A DNA stretch of 36,286 nucleotides from a virus. Positions within the stretch are counted from its first letter, which is position 1, and every line of letters starts with the position of its first letter. The notes under the pieces are model-generated. The model saw only the letters and a list, made by a program, of their open reading frames with translations. It was not told where the DNA came from and did not search any database. Positions 916 to 36,286 of this stretch are shown here, piece after piece. The translations under genes were made by a program, and so were the position numbers. The DNA lies in IMG/VR virus record IMGVR_UViG_3300021182_000010, positions 1 through 36,286 of that record; one strand, written 5' to 3'.

Positions 916-931
916 GGTGCGATATTGCACC
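916..931. promoter_or_regulatory. Recurring palindrome, copy 1 (imperfect)
   Basis: The sequence is GGTGCGATATTGCACC. It differs at one base from the perfect 16-bp palindrome GGTGCGATATCGCACC found at 9800-9815. It lies in the apparently non-coding region. Related copies are at 2513-2528 and 34284-34299. It has the size and symmetry of a dimeric regulator's binding site; no function is shown. Confidence 0.55.
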
Positions 932-2047: not shown

Positions 2048-2974
2048 ATGAAGCACAGCGAATCAATCGCGGCAATCGCAGAGGCTTTGGCATCGGCTCA
2101 GGCGGAATACATTACCGTTCCGAAGAGCAAGACGGCCAAAGTGTCGGGAATGTCTAAAACTGGAAAAGCGTACGATTTCAGCTACAAGTACGCTGACCTT
2201 GCCGACATTCTTTCGATGGCGCTTCCTCGCTTATCCAAGCAGGGTGTGTCGGTCTTACAGCCCCACGTCCTTGTGGATGGAAAACTCCGGGTTTGCACCT
2301 ACCTCTTCCACAAGTCGGGCGAGTGGATGCAGTCGGACGGTATTGAGATTTCAGAGGCCAGCCCGGACCCTCAACAGATGGGAATCGAGTCTACCTATTT
2401 CCGGCGCTACGATCTGGCATCCCTCATCGGCGTAGCTCCTGACGAAGACACCGACGCGCAACAAGCAGGAGACCGTACCCGGAAAGTAACCCCCGCCAGT
2501 GTCTACCCGCAAGGTGCGACATCGCACCCCGAAAACGCCCCCAGACCGACCAGCACGCAGCAGTCAATCCAACAGATCAACCAACGCGCAGAAACCGCAC
2601 CAGAGGCTGGGAAACCGCAAGCGGGACAGATTAAATTCATCCCGCCGAACGGCCTGACGGCAACGGTGAAGCAAGTCAAGGAAATCATCGGCGTCCCTGC
2701 GAAACCGGCAACCGATACCCTTCCAGCGATGAAGGCTATCAGGGCAAGGATGATCGTTACTTTCCTCGGCGAACACAACGGAACTTCCGAGGCGTCCTGC
2801 TTCGATACGAAATTCTTCCCGCTACTCAAAGAGTGTGTCGGTTTGGAATGTCACTTCCAGATCGCAGAAAAGGACTCGGCAGGGAAGCACTACATCAACG
2901 TGGAGGATGTGATCTACGTCGATGGTGTTGAATATGTTGGCGGGGTTCCCGTCGTTACAGGAGAGGTTGAGTAA
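2048..2974 (+). CDS. erf: ERF-family single-strand annealing protein
   Basis: This recombinase anneals complementary single strands during phage recombination and repair. Residues 1 to about 145 match the ERF family: an N-terminal helix (SIAAIAEALASAQAE), the YKYADLADIL motif, GVSVLQPHV and the conserved ending ESTYFRRYDLASLIGVAPDEDTDAQ, cut here into its typical parts. A Pro/Gln-rich linker (about 150-210) joins a C-terminal region of about 95 residues that looks like an OB-fold (ARMIVTFLGEHNG ... YINVEDVIYVDG). The total of 308 aa is longer than a minimal ERF core. The downstream gene overlaps its stop by one base (TAATG), indicating translational coupling. One copy of the recurring palindrome lies in its linker-coding region. 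The family call is confident; the OB-like C-terminus is an inference. Confidence 0.88.
   Translation: MKHSESIAAIAEALASAQAEYITVPKSKTAKVSGMSKTGKAYDFSYKYADLADILSMALPRLSKQGVSVLQPHVLVDGKLRVCTYLFHKSGEWMQSDGIEISEASPDPQQMGIESTYFRRYDLASLIGVAPDEDTDAQQAGDRTRKVTPASVYPQGATSHPENAPRPTSTQQSIQQINQRAETAPEAGKPQAGQIKFIPPNGLTATVKQVKEIIGVPAKPATDTLPAMKAIRARMIVTFLGEHNGTSEASCFDTKFFPLLKECVGLECHFQIAEKDSAGKHYINVEDVIYVDGVEYVGGVPVVTGEVE
2513..2528. promoter_or_regulatory. Recurring palindrome, copy 2 (imperfect)
   Basis: The sequence is GGTGCGACATCGCACC, one base from the perfect palindrome at 9800-9815. It lies inside the linker-coding part of the ERF gene, encoding GATSHP. Confidence 0.55.
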
Positions 2975-4224
2975 TGGAATACGTGAAAGTTGAATCATCG
3001 CAGATCGACAGCTTGGGTTTCGGTGAAGGCGTCTATGGACCAGAAACCCTTGGAATCCGTTTCAAGCAAAAGAACGGAATCAGCGAGTACCACTACGAGC
3101 ACGTCACAGCCAGGATGTATCAGGCTCTTGTGGCGGCAGAGTCAGTCGGGAAATACTTCGGCGCGAACATCAAGAACAATCCTGCATATCCGTTCACGAA
3201 GGTGGAATCACCGGACCCTCAACAGCCTCCGACGAAGAATACAGTATCTCCAGCGTCGGAGGCGACAGCGACAACGATCCTTTCTGGACTCCAATCGGAT
3301 TTGACGAAGAATATGATCGAGATCCCTACTGACAACCCCAGCACATCCCTTGCCATCATCGACAAGCTAGACAACAGCGCATTGTTCTCCGCTGGTGGGG
3401 TCACAGACGCGCAGCTTGCCGCTGGCCGAGAGTGGTATCTCACCGAAGCCAAGAAGTACGACATATCGACCGAAGCCAAGCGCACCGAACTGAAGCGTTT
3501 CGCGCGTCCACTCCAGAAGCTCCGTACTGGCATCGAAGCACGGGCCAAGGAGTTCACCGGGGAGACGAAGAGGAAGATTGCAGCTATCGACACAGAGAAG
3601 CGTCGCCTGGTGCAGATCGTGGGCGAAATCGAGGATGCGGTTCTTGCTCCGTTGACGGAATGGGAGCAGGAAGAGGAAGCACGCAAGACTCGTCTCGGAT
3701 CACATGTTTCCGATCTTTCAAGGGCTGGAGAGAACGTCTCACTATATCCCGATATTCTCTCTCTGGAATCTTCAATATCGATTCTCGAATCCTTCGACCT
3801 GTCCACCATGCAGGAGTACAAGGTAGGGGCAGAGAGCGCCATCGCCGCATCATTGCGGGTACTCAAGCGGGAACTGGAACGCCGCAAGCAAGCCGAAAAG
3901 GACGCGGCTGAACTGGAAGCGCTCAGGGCGGCAGAAGCCAAACGCCAAGACGACGCACGGATCGAAGCGGCGGCAAAGGAGTTGATCGCCAAGACGGCCC
4001 ATGTAGACCAACCGGAGCCCACTCTTGAAGTAGTCGAGGTGGTTCCGTTCGTCTACGAGCAGGTTCCACCCTCCGCTCCGGTAATTCCGTTCGTTGACAA
4101 GCAAGCCATCCATGCAGAGATCGTCGAAGAATTGCAGGGATGTATGCTCACCCGCCAACAGGCTATCTTGGTGCTGAAGGCTATCATCGAGGGACGCATC
4201 CCACACGTGACCGTGAACTACTGA
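2974..4224 (+). CDS. KTSC domain fused to a coiled-coil protein
   Basis: Residues 1 to about 75 match the KTSC domain (named for its likeness to the lysyl-tRNA synthetase C-terminal region): VESSQIDSLGFG, FKQKNGISEYHYEHV, and AESVGKYFGANIK. A low-complexity linker (about 80-130) follows. A long helical, charged region (about 145-345) is predicted as coiled coil (AKEFTGETKRKIAAIDTEKR; ELERRKQAEKDAAELEALRAA, quoted in parts). The C-terminus ends IIEGRIPHVTVNY, as in DUF1351-like phage proteins that accompany recombinases. The start overlaps the ERF stop by one base, so the two are translated together and may act together on DNA ends or single strands. The role is inferred from position. A second small KTSC protein lies at 4616. 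Confidence 0.75.
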   Translation: MEYVKVESSQIDSLGFGEGVYGPETLGIRFKQKNGISEYHYEHVTARMYQALVAAESVGKYFGANIKNNPAYPFTKVESPDPQQPPTKNTVSPASEATATTILSGLQSDLTKNMIEIPTDNPSTSLAIIDKLDNSALFSAGGVTDAQLAAGREWYLTEAKKYDISTEAKRTELKRFARPLQKLRTGIEARAKEFTGETKRKIAAIDTEKRRLVQIVGEIEDAVLAPLTEWEQEEEARKTRLGSHVSDLSRAGENVSLYPDILSLESSISILESFDLSTMQEYKVGAESAIAASLRVLKRELERRKQAEKDAAELEALRAAEAKRQDDARIEAAAKELIAKTAHVDQPEPTLEVVEVVPFVYEQVPPSAPVIPFVDKQAIHAEIVEELQGCMLTRQQAILVLKAIIEGRIPHVTVNY

Positions 4225-4828: not shown

Positions 4829-6424
4829 TTGACTCGCTCTCTTTTCGACACGCGCATCCGATCCCTTCATTCAATGCGCTGGTATCAGGAACCCGCGATT
4901 CCCATGTTCCGTGAGGCTGTGAAGTCTGGCCATCGAAAGATAGTCGGACAAGCTCCGTGCGGATACGGGAAAACGGTCATAGCGGCGCATCTCTCTGTAT
5001 CTTCGATGCAAAAGGGAAACCGCGTTCTCTTCGCCTGCCCACGCATCTCTCTTGTCGATCAGACGCTTGAATCATTCGAGCAACAGGGCATCCACGACAT
5101 AGGCATCATGCAGGCCGACAACAAGCGAACGAATCGCATGGCGCAGCTTCAGATTGCTTGCTTCGACACGCTCTACAATCGTCCCGACGAGTGCAAGGAC
5201 TTTGGTTTCGTGATCCTCGACGAGATTCACTTGGCCGACGCCCGGATGTGGAAGCTCATGGAGAACTGGAAAGTAGTTCTTGCCCTGACAGCTACACCGT
5301 GGAAGAAAGGTCTAGGACTACATTTCAGTAAGCTCATCGTGCTATCGACCATTGCCGACATGCTGGAGTATCACGAGAAAGACCCCTCGGTTGGTTTGGT
5401 GCCTGTGCTCGGAATCGGACCAAAACTGGAAATCCTCAAGGGAATCGAAGCTCTGAAGACTGGAGACGATGGTGACATTCAAGAGACTGCCGCCGCTCAC
5501 TTCATGGAAAAAACAGAGGTCATTGCCGACATTGTGGATACGTGGCTGAAGACTCGGCAGGAAGGCAACCATCCAGGAGACCGAACGTTTGTCTTTGCCC
5601 GTCGCCGGGTGACGGCGGTTGCGTATCAGGAGGCTTTCAAGGCCAAGGGAATCAACTTCGACTACATCGACGCATTCACGTCCAACCGCTCTCCAATCTT
5701 CAAACGGTTCAGAGCAAAACAAACACAAGGCATCGTGAGTGTTGGGTGCCTGTCTACCGGGGTTGATGAGGATGTGCGATGCATCGTGAGCGCGGCCCCA
5801 CGAAAGAATCAGGCTGATATTGTGCAAGAGCTAGGCCGGGGGATGCGTCCGGCTGAAGGTAAGGAGTATTGCTGGCTCAACGACCACGTAGGCAATGCCA
5901 ACCGCTACGGGTGGTTTGCAGACATATTCCACGACAAGCTCGACGACACGCCCCCGCACATCAAGGGAAGCGCCTATGAGAAAGACGAAGCGGCACCCAC
6001 CGAGGTCAAGCGGAAGCAATGCTCCACATGCCGTGAGTTCCTGCCTCGTGGTGCGTTCAAATGCTCCGTGTGTGGCACTGCGGTTGTCGTGGATGACACG
6101 GTGACTCTCGACGGCGAACTGGTAGACCTTCACCATTCCAAGGTGGAGAAGAAGCCAAAGAAAGAACGTCTCCAGAAGAGCGAAGAGCAAGCGTTCTACT
6201 CTGGATTGATCCGATTCGCTCAGGATCGAGGATTCAAGGAAGGATGGGCTGCGAACAAGTTCCGTGAGAAGTTCGGCGTATGGCCCAACCGACTTGACAA
6301 GGTTCCAATGACTCCACGCAAAGCGGTGAAGGAGTTTATCAGGGACTCTCAACGTGCATGGAGAGATCAACAGAAAGCCAACGCACCAGAACCAGTGGAA
6401 GAAGAGTACAGAGCGGAGTTTTGA
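4829..6424 (+). CDS. Superfamily 2 DNA helicase with C-terminal zinc ribbon
   Basis: This is an ATP-dependent helicase or translocase of the DEAD/DEAH (UvrB/type III restriction-like) group, likely unwinding DNA at replication or recombination. Motif I is APCGYGKT (about residues 43-50), motif II is DEIH (131-134), motif III is TATPWKK (about 154-160), and motif VI is QELGRGMRP (about 333-341). A four-cysteine ribbon CSTC ... CSVC lies at about 398-416. The last 100 residues are basic and helical. The start is a TTG at 4829, supported by GGAG six bases upstream; the first ATG is 15 codons in. Its 531 aa is a normal length. The next helicase-methyltransferase gene starts one base after its stop, so both are probably made together. 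Confidence 0.88.
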   Translation: MTRSLFDTRIRSLHSMRWYQEPAIPMFREAVKSGHRKIVGQAPCGYGKTVIAAHLSVSSMQKGNRVLFACPRISLVDQTLESFEQQGIHDIGIMQADNKRTNRMAQLQIACFDTLYNRPDECKDFGFVILDEIHLADARMWKLMENWKVVLALTATPWKKGLGLHFSKLIVLSTIADMLEYHEKDPSVGLVPVLGIGPKLEILKGIEALKTGDDGDIQETAAAHFMEKTEVIADIVDTWLKTRQEGNHPGDRTFVFARRRVTAVAYQEAFKAKGINFDYIDAFTSNRSPIFKRFRAKQTQGIVSVGCLSTGVDEDVRCIVSAAPRKNQADIVQELGRGMRPAEGKEYCWLNDHVGNANRYGWFADIFHDKLDDTPPHIKGSAYEKDEAAPTEVKRKQCSTCREFLPRGAFKCSVCGTAVVVDDTVTLDGELVDLHHSKVEKKPKKERLQKSEEQAFYSGLIRFAQDRGFKEGWAANKFREKFGVWPNRLDKVPMTPRKAVKEFIRDSQRAWRDQQKANAPEPVEEEYRAEF

Positions 6425-6425
6425 G

Positions 6426-8759
6426 ATGAGCACACGAACGATAAACGGAGAGGTTGTCACCATGCCGGAACGGTCAGTGATGGGGAGCGAGATGATCGAT
6501 CCTCTTGAGTTCAGTTACGAGCGTTTTCTTGATCGCAAACGGTTCACTCCGATTGTCTCTGGACTGACTACCGTTCCCGCGCTCAACCCTGCCATGTTCC
6601 CACATCAGCGCGACGTGTGCTCATGGGCTTTGCGTCTCGGGCGGGCTGCGGCGTTCCTTGGAACGGGAATGGGAAAGAGCCTGATCGAACTGGAATGGGC
6701 GCGATGTGTCTATGAGCATACCGGACTTCCTGTCCTTCTGTTGGCTCCACTAGCCGTGGCTTACCAGATGGTCACAGAGGGGCAGAAGTTCGGAATCCAT
6801 ACGAAGTATTGCAAGACTCCAGAAGAAGCAGGAGACGAGCACATCGTAGTGACCAACTACGAGCGTTTTGAGAACTTCGACCCGGAGAACTATTCCGGCG
6901 TTGTCCTTGACGAATCGAGCATCCTGAAATCTTTCGACGGCTCAACGCGTTCCGCACTCATCGAAGCGTTCAAGAATACCCCGTATCGACTCGCAGCGAC
7001 CGCTACACCGGCCCCTAACGATCACATGGAGCTTGGCAACCATGCGGAGTTCCTGGGAGTCATGACGGCCACTGAGATGCTTTCCATGTTCTTCACCCAT
7101 GACGGAGGAGAGACGCAGAAGTGGAGACTCAAGGGACACGCCCGAACCGAGTTCTGGAAGTGGGTTTGCTCGTGGGCTGTGTCAATGCGCAAACCTTCGG
7201 ATATTGGATACGATGACGGGCTATTCGTTTTGCCTGAATTGATCTATCACGAGCATATCGTCCAAGTGGATACTCCGTCGGAAGGGATGCTGTTCGCGAT
7301 GCCAGCCGAGACGTTGGGCGAGAGGCTTGCGGCGAGACGGTCTACTGTCGATGATCGGGTTGCTGAAGTGGTTTCCATTGTCAACGCAGAACCAACCGAA
7401 AAATGGCTCATATGGTGCAACTTGAATAAAGAATCCGAAGCGATAAAATCGGCGTTGCCGGGATGCGTGGAGCTGACAGGATCAGACTCCCCCGAGCACA
7501 AAGCGGAAACGTCTCTCAAGTTTGCTCAAGGCGCTATCGACTGGCTTGTGAGCAAGGCAACCATTCTCGGGTTTGGAGTGAACTATCAGGTTTGCTCACA
7601 TCAGATCTTCGCCGGGGTAAACGATTCATGGGAGCAGTTCTTCCAAGCCATCCGGCGCTGTTGGAGATTTGGCCAGACGCAACCCGTTCACGTTCACATC
7701 ATCGCGGCATCGACCGAGGGAAACGTGCTGGAGAACCTGAAGCGCAAAGAAAGGGAAGCGGAGCAAATGGCAGAAGAGATGCAGGAAAACATGCAGGACT
7801 TGACCCGCATGAACTTGACCGGAACTGTACGGAGTGAGTCCACTTACGAGCGCGAGAAGACTGAGACGGAGCAGTGGACGATGCACCTTGCCGACTGCGT
7901 CGATCTGGCGCGAGAACTGCCCGACAATAGCATCCATTTTTCCGTCTACTCGCCTCCGTTCGCTTCGCTTTATACGTACTCCAATTCCGAGAGAGACATG
8001 GGAAACAGCAAGGACCATGACGAGTTTTGGCGGCACTATCGTTTCCTCATCAAAGAGCAGTTCCGAGTGCTTATGCCGGGGCGTCTTGTCTCCATCCATT
8101 GCATGAATCTTCCCACGTCGAAAGTGCGCGACGGGCACATCGGAATCAGGGACTTTCGCGGCGAGATTATCCGCGCATTTGAAGAGGTTGGATTCATTTA
8201 CCACTCTGAGGTTTGCATCTGGAAAGACCCCGTGACGGCCATGCAGCGCACCAAAGCCCTCGGCCTGCTTCACAAGCAGATTCGAAAAGACTCATGCATG
8301 AGCCGTCAGGGGGTTCCCGATTATCTTGTGACCATGCGCAAGCCGGGAGATAATCCAGAGCGCGTCGGTCACACGTCCGAAGAGTTCCCTGTCCAACTGT
8401 GGCAGCAATACGCTTCCCCGGTTTGGATGGACATCAACCCATCAGACACGCTTCAATACCGTTCAGCGCGTGAGCACAACGATGAGCGACACATCTGCCC
8501 TCTCCAGTTGGAAGTGATCCGCCGCGCTGTGAAGTTGTGGACGAATCCCGGAGATACGGTTTGGAGTCCGTTCGCGGGCATCGGTAGCGAGGGTTTCGTG
8601 GCTCTGGAGATGGGACGTGGATTCATCGGAAGCGAGTTGAAGCCATCGTACTACCGTCAGGCTTGCAAGAACCTCCAGCGGGCTCTGAGCGTCACGAGTG
8701 GACTGTTCTCGGAAGTCGAGGAAGAGCCCGAAGACGAATCGGACGAAGAATCAGAATGA
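6426..8759 (+). CDS. SNF2-like helicase fused to beta-class DNA methyltransferase
   Basis: This 777-residue protein joins two enzymes. The N-terminal half is an SNF2/SF2 ATPase: motif I GTGMGKS (about 79-85), motif II DESS (about 161-164), motif III ATATPAPND (about 190-198), and motif VI QAIRRCWRFGQ (about 407-417). A charged, helical linker (about 435-470) leads to a methyltransferase. Its catalytic motif IV is SPPF (about 509-512) and its S-adenosylmethionine motif I is FAGIGSEG (about 716-723). The order IV then I defines the beta class, and SPPF suggests N4-cytosine or N6-adenine methylation. I chose the ATG at 6426, one base after the upstream stop. The primase-like gene overlaps its end by ATGA. 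No nuclease domain is visible, so this is not an obvious restriction enzyme. It may protect the phage DNA or modify it during replication. Confidence 0.88.
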   Translation: MSTRTINGEVVTMPERSVMGSEMIDPLEFSYERFLDRKRFTPIVSGLTTVPALNPAMFPHQRDVCSWALRLGRAAAFLGTGMGKSLIELEWARCVYEHTGLPVLLLAPLAVAYQMVTEGQKFGIHTKYCKTPEEAGDEHIVVTNYERFENFDPENYSGVVLDESSILKSFDGSTRSALIEAFKNTPYRLAATATPAPNDHMELGNHAEFLGVMTATEMLSMFFTHDGGETQKWRLKGHARTEFWKWVCSWAVSMRKPSDIGYDDGLFVLPELIYHEHIVQVDTPSEGMLFAMPAETLGERLAARRSTVDDRVAEVVSIVNAEPTEKWLIWCNLNKESEAIKSALPGCVELTGSDSPEHKAETSLKFAQGAIDWLVSKATILGFGVNYQVCSHQIFAGVNDSWEQFFQAIRRCWRFGQTQPVHVHIIAASTEGNVLENLKRKEREAEQMAEEMQENMQDLTRMNLTGTVRSESTYEREKTETEQWTMHLADCVDLARELPDNSIHFSVYSPPFASLYTYSNSERDMGNSKDHDEFWRHYRFLIKEQFRVLMPGRLVSIHCMNLPTSKVRDGHIGIRDFRGEIIRAFEEVGFIYHSEVCIWKDPVTAMQRTKALGLLHKQIRKDSCMSRQGVPDYLVTMRKPGDNPERVGHTSEEFPVQLWQQYASPVWMDINPSDTLQYRSAREHNDERHICPLQLEVIRRAVKLWTNPGDTVWSPFAGIGSEGFVALEMGRGFIGSELKPSYYRQACKNLQRALSVTSGLFSEVEEEPEDESDEESE

Positions 8760-9393: not shown

Positions 9394-9794
9394 AAGCTCT
9401 TAGTGTGCGTGCGCCGTGGTGGTTGGCAATACTGGACGGTGGCAAGGATATTGAAAACCGTGACTGGTACACGAACCAGCGTGGACGCATTGCCCTACAC
9501 GCGGGGAAGTGGTTCAATGAAGACGAGATCATGCAGGACTTGATTACTATCCAGAAAATCCTCGGACTCGAAGAGCCTTCCAATGAGATGCTGAAACTAT
9601 TCAAGCCGTTCGGCGGCTGCATCGTGGGAACCGTTGAAATCGTGAATTGCGTCACAGAAAGCCCTTCGCCGTGGTTCTTTGGAAAGTACGGTTTTGTGCT
9701 ATCCGGTCCCGTTGCTCTGCCGAGTCCGATCCCCTACAAGGGACAGCTTGGTTTCTTCGATGTTCCAGACGATCTAGTGAGGACAATACAATGA
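9390..9794 (+). CDS. ASCH-domain protein
   Basis: ASCH domains are PUA-related beta-barrels thought to bind RNA. The N-terminus MKALSVRAPWWLAILDGGKDIENRDW is the family signature (conserved K-x-L-S-x-R-x-P-W-W and D-x-E-N-R), quoted here as its two halves. RGRIALHAGKW follows, then GCIVGTVEIVNC and a C-terminal strand region. At 134 aa it is full length. Start and stop overlap both neighbours by ATGA, so it belongs to the replication operon. A role in regulating phage or host RNA is plausible; some ASCH proteins hydrolyse modified nucleosides, so that is an alternative. Confidence 0.82.
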   Translation: MKALSVRAPWWLAILDGGKDIENRDWYTNQRGRIALHAGKWFNEDEIMQDLITIQKILGLEEPSNEMLKLFKPFGGCIVGTVEIVNCVTESPSPWFFGKYGFVLSGPVALPSPIPYKGQLGFFDVPDDLVRTIQ

Positions 9795-10444
9795 CAATCG
9801 GTGCGATATCGCACCTCAGCCCAACCGAGCCGAAGTGGTTTGACATAGGCTTGATGACAGACGAGACGGCAGCGGCAACCTTGAAGGAAATACTTCGATC
9901 TTTGGACACCGCTGAGGAGCAAGTAGAAGGGTTCCGTGAGCGCATCTTCTCTCGCCGCATGTGTGCCCTACGCATCTACCGGACCCGGAACCTCTGGAAG
10001 CTGGATATAGACCCCCAGAGCGACAGGCCGTTCACTTCGATGGATTCGTGGATCGAGGCCCTCTATCCGGGTGGAACCTCTCGCTACGCTAAGGAGTCGG
10101 CAGCAACCGAGAAGGCTCTTGACGCCGTACCGATCACCATCCTCGCAGAGACTCCCCGGTGCAATGCCAGGTTACTGGCTAGTCCATCAGTGTCGGAGAC
10201 GTGTCGCCGCGATCCTGTGGTTCAGAAAGCCATGCTGGAGAATTCGGAGAAGGGGTTCCGCCAGGTTCTCAACGTGACTCATGGGCAGGCGCTTGAGGAG
10301 TTTGAGACGCTGAAGTTCAGGTTCCCTAAATCGACGGCGGAGATGGTCAAGAAACGGTTGGAAGAGATTGGCGAGACGTGGAACCTGACCACACCTGAAT
10401 CGGAGTTACTGAAGGGGTTGTTTGAAGAACCGGAGACGATGTGA
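9791..10444 (+). CDS. Hypothetical protein, 217 aa
   Basis: I chose the ATG at 9791 because it overlaps the ASCH gene stop by ATGA; the longer open frame upstream is a shadow of that gene. The product begins MTIGAISHLSPTEPKWFDIG and is mostly helical and charged. It ends ELLKGLFEEPETM. No conserved motif was recognised. The perfect 16-bp palindrome lies at codons 4-9. The next gene starts with GTG overlapping its stop (GTGA). It may be a DNA-metabolism accessory protein by position only. Confidence 0.7.
   Translation: MTIGAISHLSPTEPKWFDIGLMTDETAAATLKEILRSLDTAEEQVEGFRERIFSRRMCALRIYRTRNLWKLDIDPQSDRPFTSMDSWIEALYPGGTSRYAKESAATEKALDAVPITILAETPRCNARLLASPSVSETCRRDPVVQKAMLENSEKGFRQVLNVTHGQALEEFETLKFRFPKSTAEMVKKRLEEIGETWNLTTPESELLKGLFEEPETM
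9800..9815. promoter_or_regulatory. Recurring palindrome, copy 3 (perfect 16 bp)
   Basis: GGTGCGATATCGCACC is fully self-complementary. It lies ten bases into the gene starting at 9791, encoding GAISHL. It is the reference copy for the family; the others are at 916, 2513 and 34284. Confidence 0.6.
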
Positions 10445-33526: not shown

Positions 33527-34963
33527 TCACATCACCTGAATTTGGCGGTTCGCGCCGGTAAACTTCTCTTCGATGTTGATGCTCGCGTCGAAGGCTACCC
33601 GAGCCGATGGCTTGGAAGCCTGTTGCGCCAGATTGAACAGCGCCCTCAATGCAGGAACGCCGGTCACGTCCTTGTGGTCGATCTTCATCTGATCGAGCGC
33701 GAATCCGTAGATGGCTTCAGCTGAGTCTTGCGCCAGAACATCACCCACGACCGGGCGCACTGCGCGGCGGGCGTCTTCTGCCTCGCGGAGTTCCGCGCGG
33801 AACTCATCCATTGCGTGTTTCATGCTGTCCTCCGCTTTCTTCTTCTCTTCCTCGGGATCGGCGTCCTTCGCCTTCTTGGCCATATCCTTGGCCTTCTTCT
33901 CGTACTCCTTGCGCTTGGCGCGGTCCTCGTCGTCCTCTTCGGCGTCCTTGGCGGTCTTGTGCTCCGGCTCGCCCTCTTCTTCAGCGGCCCATTCCTCGAA
34001 GGACATATCCTTGGCCCGCTTCGGTTTGGAGTCCTTGGCCTTCTTGTCTGAAGCCTTGCGTAGACTGGCGGGCATCGAATCGTCGCCCGGATCGTCCGCA
34101 CTGCCGTCCTTGCGCATCTGGGACCACATAGCCCGCTCTTCGCTGGTCTGTGCATCCTTGGCGATGCGGTCCTTGGCCTTCTTCGGCTCCTCTTCCTCGG
34201 CAGCATCCTTGGCGGCATCGAGAGCCATGCGAGTAGGCTCCATGCGAAGTTCTGCGTCCATGGCCAGTAATTTGGGTTCGAGAGATGCGATATCGCACCG
34301 CTTGCGGGTTAGCCCAATCACCAGAGGCTTGAGGGCCGCGTCCTGGGCCAGCTTCGGAGAAGCCGCACAGAGGATTGCGTAAAGAGCTTTGCCGAATTTC
34401 GTTTCCGTCATTTTTGTCTCCAATCCTTCGTCCGCCGCCATGACATCCGATCCAGCGCGGCCTGCTTTAACCAGCGCAACATGATTCCCTTGAATATCGC
34501 GCATAACCCCGTCATACCGCTGTCCCTCGTACATCCCCGGCGTCATGTCGGCCCGGTAGCGATACGAGGACGACAACTCCCGAACCGTGTCTGTCTCTAC
34601 TCCGGCGATAGCGTCCACATCCCAAACGCACAAATCCGCAATCAGATATGGAGCTTGAAACTCCACATCTGAGCCGATTGTTCCTGCGATTGAATCCTGT
34701 TTGGGGTCTTCCGCGCTTACTGCCGTGTGCTTGAACATCAACTGCACGCGGGCGAAGGATGGAGCCGCTTTGGCTAGTTCTCCGGGATCGCGCAACAGGT
34801 AATAGATGCGCTCCGGCTCCAGTCCCAACTTGTTTGCGTCGGGAATCTCTCGCCCGTAATAGGGATTTACGGTAGCCTTGGAGATCGGAGTCCGCAGGAT
34901 ATGCAAACGTCCGTCTGCGTCGTATCGCCGATTCTTCAGGGCTGAGTCGCACGCAATCTCCAT
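33527..34963 (-). CDS. DUF2213 prohead protease fused to scaffold
   Basis: The N-terminal 185 residues are a DUF2213 protease: GREIPDANKLGLEPERIYYL, RVQLMFKHTAVSAEDPKQD, VRELSSSYRYRADMTPGMYE and RDIQGNHVALVKAGRAGSD. The His, the Ser before Y-R-Y and the NHVALV motif are probable catalytic or structural residues. About residues 250-400 form a highly charged helical scaffold with many copies of AKD or KKAKD. The C-terminus (SINIEEKFTGANRQIQV) probably binds the capsid protein. Fused protease-scaffold proteins cut themselves out as the head matures. It carries the palindrome copy at 34284. Confidence 0.82.
   Translation of the reverse strand: MEIACDSALKNRRYDADGRLHILRTPISKATVNPYYGREIPDANKLGLEPERIYYLLRDPGELAKAAPSFARVQLMFKHTAVSAEDPKQDSIAGTIGSDVEFQAPYLIADLCVWDVDAIAGVETDTVRELSSSYRYRADMTPGMYEGQRYDGVMRDIQGNHVALVKAGRAGSDVMAADEGLETKMTETKFGKALYAILCAASPKLAQDAALKPLVIGLTRKRCDIASLEPKLLAMDAELRMEPTRMALDAAKDAAEEEEPKKAKDRIAKDAQTSEERAMWSQMRKDGSADDPGDDSMPASLRKASDKKAKDSKPKRAKDMSFEEWAAEEEGEPEHKTAKDAEEDDEDRAKRKEYEKKAKDMAKKAKDADPEEEKKKAEDSMKHAMDEFRAELREAEDARRAVRPVVGDVLAQDSAEAIYGFALDQMKIDHKDVTGVPALRALFNLAQQASKPSARVAFDASINIEEKFTGANRQIQVM
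34284..34299. promoter_or_regulatory. Recurring palindrome, copy 4
   Basis: The + strand sequence is GATGCGATATCGCACC, differing at one base from the copy at 9800-9815; its inner 12 bp are fully symmetrical. It lies inside the protease/scaffold gene in a different reading frame from copies 2 and 3, so the conservation is at DNA level. Confidence 0.55.
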
Positions 34964-36067: not shown

Positions 36068-36286
36068 GCAGTTCCCTTTCCTAGGCTAGCCCCAAGCTCC
36101 TCTTCTGCGGGCTGCTCGATCTCTTTGTCTATATCTATCCCCTGGTAGCCGCTGTCAGGATCACGCGCCAGCCGCTCACGCTCTTCCGTTGAATCGATCA
36201 CGCCCCGGTCTATGAGGTTGCCAGCCCGGATGCTTTCGTTCACGCGCATGTTGGAAATCTGCTCCTCGGTCATCTCGTAGAGCGGA
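36064..36286 (-). CDS. Portal protein, C-terminal fragment (DUF1073-type)
   Basis: The frame is open to the window edge, so the gene starts outside; the ATG at 36273 is probably internal. The visible 73 residues begin PLYEMTEEQISNMRVNESIR and contain DRGVIDSTEERERLARDPDS followed by GYQGID, a pattern typical of DUF1073 portal C-termini. An acidic tail ends the protein. The portal forms the head vertex through which DNA is packaged and ejected. The downstream gene is coupled by ATGA. Confidence 0.78.
   Translation of the reverse strand, partial: PLYEMTEEQISNMRVNESIRAGNLIDRGVIDSTEERERLARDPDSGYQGIDIDKEIEQPAEEELGASLGKGTA

Follow-up and report, generated by a model that had tools for sequence, protein, structure and literature searches.

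Palindromic Sites and Genes in the Window

The window, meaning the whole stretch of 36,286 bases that was analysed, contained four copies of a 16-bp palindrome within one mismatch, with none expected by chance. The perfect copy (site 3, 9800..9815) lay 9 bases downstream of the first start-codon base of P0001, a plus-strand gene (9791..10444) encoding 217 aa, and thus within the first codons of the protein proposed here as the reader of the sites. Each of the other three copies had one mismatch: site 1 (916..931; GGTGCGATATTGCACC) in DNA that lacks codon periodicity and is possibly a non-coding RNA; site 2 (2513..2528; GGTGCGACATCGCACC) within the linker of an Erf-like ssDNA annealing protein encoded on the plus strand (2048..2974); and site 4 (34284..34299; GATGCGATATCGCACC) within the gene for the head maturation protease. 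Sites 2 and 3 shared a reading frame, encoding GATSH and GAISH, respectively, and site 4, in a minus-strand gene, used a different frame from these two. The positions and mismatches agreed with those given in an earlier note on this DNA, as did its account of two copies in one frame, one in another and one outside genes, the copy at 916 being without codon periodicity, and a search of the virus record itself gave the same copies. Shuffles of the window gave 0.23 matches to the 16-bp palindrome even when three mismatches were allowed. A half-site GTGCGAT at 1991, which the earlier note had also listed, was dropped as not significant, because any given 6-mer is expected to recur by chance about 18 times on both strands of 36 kb.

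Two other regions of the window were distinctive. Positions 745-1180 had about 70% identity to G003 42685-42235, with no codon periodicity and with promoter-like sequence upstream, and are possibly a large non-coding RNA; the place of site 916 was taken in G003 by a small CUGG-GAAA-CCAG hairpin. Positions 6420-8759 encoded a helicase-methyltransferase fusion with up to 85% identity to contigs that were otherwise much more diverged.

The window, a virus record in its own right, is an incomplete fragment of the phage genome. Its last 55 bases (36232..36286) were identical to the first 55 of IMGVR_UViG_3300021182_000047 (8,265 bases), and the portal gene stayed open across the junction for 513 residues. 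Alternatively, the overlap may come from an assembly branch point that both contigs share. The two pieces were joined as one phage because an exact 55-base overlap is expected from a single assembly graph and because the portal gene reads through; the contig very probably continues this phage and appears to supply its missing terminase, portal and early part. Further sites lay in this contig at its own positions 4184 (perfect) and 5254, 6897 and 7835 (variants). At its left end the window had a 24-base tandem repeat in two copies (positions 1-53), which is probably why the assembly ended there.

Motif Form and Enrichment

The general form of the motif was RGTGCRA-NN-TYGCACY, that is, half-sites RGTGCRA around a 2-base centre. 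With at most one mismatch, GTGCRA-NN-TYGCAC occurred 8 times in the joined 44,496 bases (44.5 kb), whereas 100 codon-block shuffles of the joined sequence averaged 0.39 and never exceeded 2. A scan open to every repeated inverted repeat, corrected for post hoc choice and run on the window plus the adjoining contig against codon-block shuffles, ranked the palindrome first (8 copies vs. 2-4 for the best dyad of the null), making it the strongest repeated dyad of the window phage genome. The shuffles and the dyad search ruled out chance recurrence. The claim of the earlier note that the motif recurs beyond chance was thereby borne out, the count in the fuller genome being strongly enriched and not at the level of the codon-block shuffles.

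Similar palindromes occurred singly in many bacterial genomes, which speaks for a host-derived iterated palindrome or the site of a common host regulator. A search of 257 Gb of bacterial and archaeal sequence, however, gave 51 exact 16-mers, never more than one to a contig, and their flanks held no further copy even with one mismatch allowed. In 200 genomes of Terriglobia the core occurred 12 times, vs. 3 times for a reversed control; the presumed host group follows from the phages of Tunturiibacter (Acidobacteriota), the only deposited phages with P0001 homologues. A host origin of the motif is accordingly very improbable, and the palindrome is a genuine DNA site specific to the phage, of which related viruses bear their own matching versions. 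Among the interpretations offered by the earlier note, a site for a dimeric DNA-binding protein of the repressor or partition type stood, and the host palindrome did not; neither did a packaging site, which was unsupported because the copies were many and dispersed, most of them in the early region and at the starts of genes.

Conservation and Concerted Change in Related Phages

The site at the P0001 start (window 9800) was conserved in place in G003, G005, G209, L168 and G208, and the site in the Erf linker (window 2513) in G004, G209 and G208, the last with a 3-base centre; G003 had no site at the Erf-linker place, and the site at 34284 had no counterpart at the same place in the relatives. 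The palindrome motif was the top or joint-top repeated dyad in G003, G209 and G208, and G004 had two sites only. At both orthologous places G208 kept the arms GTGCRA and TCGCAC around the 3-base centre, and the same centre was present in its three other sites, five in all. Because the change was present at all G208 sites together, it points to a single DNA reader acting in trans.

The coding sites of Erf and P0001 used the same frame in several phages, and many coding copies encoded [SG]A[IT][SL]H, as they would if this peptide were what is conserved and the likeness in DNA were secondary. Against this, the shifted sites of G208 kept the DNA arms and encoded GARIAL and QVQESH instead, and the other sites were intergenic or in different frames. 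Conservation of a peptide is thus scarcely credible as the explanation, and the view of the earlier note that selection acted on DNA and not on protein was upheld by G208, where the arms were kept while the peptide changed.

The cultured phages Tunturi_1 and Tunturi_2, reached solely through P0001 homology, had 9-11 copies of GTCCRA-NN-TYGGAC as their own top dyad. This variant differed by one base, changed symmetrically in both arms, and was otherwise alike in architecture; a reversed control of it, run on Tunturi_2, gave zero copies. The two Tunturi phages were 97.5% similar, too close for a test of site conservation between them. Helicase relatives without P0001 (G214, L134, L136, L137 and L193) had zero sites; a dyad with exact arms in G214 was rejected as a counterpart, being a tandem coding repeat. 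Distant P0001 homologues were present in G216 and G217, in which a repeated dyad was absent; this, like the low number of sites in G004, speaks against P0001 as the reader. Occurrences of GTGCGATATCGCAC in viral contigs globally were uninformative, being mostly single coding copies in unrelated phages. An unrelated 29.7-kb phage (contig 3300037286_000008; L298, L299) had some 15 AAGG-GTGCNAYRTNGCAC-CCTT sites, mostly intergenic, and a weak ParB_N protein (L298 2742-4262).

Association With Gene Starts

Several sites lay 13-40 bases before start codons or within the first codons, and it was this proximity to Shine-Dalgarno sequences and starts in the close relatives that suggested an RNA hairpin, acting near ribosome binding sites in translation control or mRNA stability in the manner of a start-associated sequence. 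The G208 variant would fold too. In unrelated phages, GTGCAATATCGCAC was placed ahead of genes in a single orientation (42 forward and 2 reverse of 109, with about half of the 42 forward matches from one tail-gene family). The pair statistics were unlike those of a stem, and the hairpin was demoted: the commonest asymmetric form, read in the gene sense, places an A-C mismatch and not a G-U pair in the stem, and the orientation favoured by 42 to 2 in the unrelated phages was likewise the one yielding A-C. Across the tabulated sites the outer and inner purine/pyrimidine pairs varied independently and A-C combinations were common in the gene sense, as expected of DNA half-sites rather than of an RNA stem, which would avoid them. 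The Tunturi sites were mostly intragenic and had no tie to starts, and known RNA families gave no match at gathering thresholds. Action as an RNA hairpin is accordingly quite unlikely.

Overall, 16 of 55 sites were associated with gene starts vs. 6.8 expected, and 2 of 21 in the Tunturi phages. The association, modest overall and absent in Tunturi, is therefore regarded as a habit of a lineage and not as part of the definition of the sites, and a single regulatory role for all sites was unsupported for the same reason. In a set of unrelated phages (L324, L423, L325, L368 and L379), GTGCAATATCGCAC lay at the transcription start of sigma70-like promoters and was closely followed by a Shine-Dalgarno sequence.

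P0001 as the Candidate Reader

P0001 homologues were present in all near relatives bearing sites and, among phage and plasmid records, only in Tunturiibacter phages; the cultured Tunturi phages, with their own dyad, gave the strongest test of P0001 as reader. A Pfam search of P0001 found no known domain. AlphaFold models were all-helical (mean pLDDT of 82 for P0001 and 88 for the G005 homologue). The best structural matches of two P0001-family models, whose sequences were about 31% identical, included Spo0J (1vz0; Z 6.2, rank 1) and Caulobacter ParB-parS (6s6h; Z 6.4, rank 2); for proteins made of helices, Z values near 6 are weak, and the 6s6h match in the second model was tied with the unrelated protein Raf1, the ParB likeness counting as a lead only. 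For P0001, Foldseek alone returned nothing significant from PDB or from viral models. A ParB_N/CTPase domain was absent from P0001 by Pfam, from its all-helical model and from the search of the window, and no ParA was named in the Tunturi_2 annotation among the entries listed.

A different phage protein could read the sites, either a separate ParB-HTH protein as in G003 and G005 or a small XRE/Cro-like regulator, P0001 then being just one of the regulated genes. A site lay immediately upstream of the ParB-HTH gene of G003 (L293 3441-4247), G005 (L301) encoded a homologue of that protein with 48% identity, and G006, an unrelated site-rich contig, encoded a weak ParB_N protein; in the window phage, a ParB-HTH gene could sit in the unsequenced gap left of window position 1, where the joined map would place it. 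In G208, G209, G007 and the Tunturi record, however, no match to the ParB-HTH protein was found although several of these bear sites, and BLAST of the Tunturi proteins against the window phage returned similarity for the P0001 homologue only, the one protein common to both. A reader other than P0001 is rather unlikely.

The interpretation preferred here, which is fairly probable, is that a dimeric DNA-binding protein encoded by the phage, most likely P0001 (9791-10444), has the palindromes as its dispersed binding sites. It starts from what was seen directly, namely the sites, their enrichment and phage specificity, the two conserved orthologous places, and the concerted change of sequence or spacing in relatives.

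Comparison With Known Systems

The window phage resembled ParB-parS systems in having a palindromic site of about 16 bp in several copies per replicon (8 sites in 44.5 kb), and differed from them in that P0001 had no detectable ParB_N/CTPase domain. The operators of KorB (OB) likewise have a dispersed palindromic layout. KorB of RK2 is a ParB-family protein that represses genes at a distance too (PMC11790492). It is a CTP-binding sliding clamp, whereas P0001 lacked that domain by sequence and by model.

Oligonucleotides of the inverted repeats IR1-4 bound by SopB of phage N15 contain GTGCGA...TCGCAC arms (PMC7205306). The N15 sites were like those of the window phage in comprising several palindromes with the same hexamer arms and a phage-encoded helical DNA-binding protein, in the window phage the candidate P0001, but the arms are 6 bases apart in N15, 2 in the window phage and 3 in G208, and GTGCGA-N6-TCGCAC was absent in the joined phage, G003, G208, G209 and Tunturi_1.

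Stoperators of the L5 type, short and numerous, all serve a single phage protein and lie in promoter regions and in short gaps between genes (PMC9283540); they are asymmetric 13-mers that follow the direction of transcription, and the repressor, bound as a monomer, halts transcription elongation, whereas the window sites are palindromic and often intragenic. The SAS/ESAS of cluster K mycobacteriophages, likewise short repeats specific to phages, are situated close to where translation begins and are almost lacking in the host (PMC3203893). SAS are asymmetric 13-mers and lie 3-7 bases from the start codon, whereas sites of the window type are palindromic and lie 13-40 bases away or after the start; SAS are also start-associated and the Tunturi palindromes are not. 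The system was filed under no known kind because each of these nearest arrangements fails at least one defining feature checked. A term search of the Tunturi phage paper found no mention of palindromes or ParB, and a literature search for the core sequence found no paper. The P0001 family and its sites apparently constitute a new family of protein and site in an arrangement of a known kind.

Proposed Role and Significance

P0001 is predicted to bind the palindromes as a dimer and would control its own gene by way of the copy among that gene's first codons. It may regulate other early genes too: binding just before a Shine-Dalgarno sequence, just past a start codon or inside a gene would repress or block transcription, and intragenic sites may serve as a roadblock or as an organiser of the genome. 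These putative roles in silencing, as a roadblock and in genome organisation are modelled on dispersed operators and parS-like sites. The predicted preferred site of P0001 is GGTGCGATATCGCACC, and Tunturi gp50 is predicted to prefer GTCCAATATTGGAC over GTGCGATATCGCAC.

A wider proposal, for and against which the balance is even, is that small phage proteins of the P0001 family may be built like the DNA-binding part of ParB without the CTPase domain, reading lineage-specific palindromes of 14-15 bp across the genomes of acidobacterial phages, with the arm sequence (GTGC to GTCC) and the spacing (2 to 3) each switched at all sites together. If this is true, the switches in recognition sequence and spacing would be a natural series for the evolution of a genome-wide code between protein and site, and the whole-genome site changes would make coevolution in DNA recognition directly testable. 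Acidobacteriota are among the commonest soil bacteria and almost nothing is known of gene control in their viruses, for which the gain would be a named candidate regulator with predicted sites in two cultured phages.
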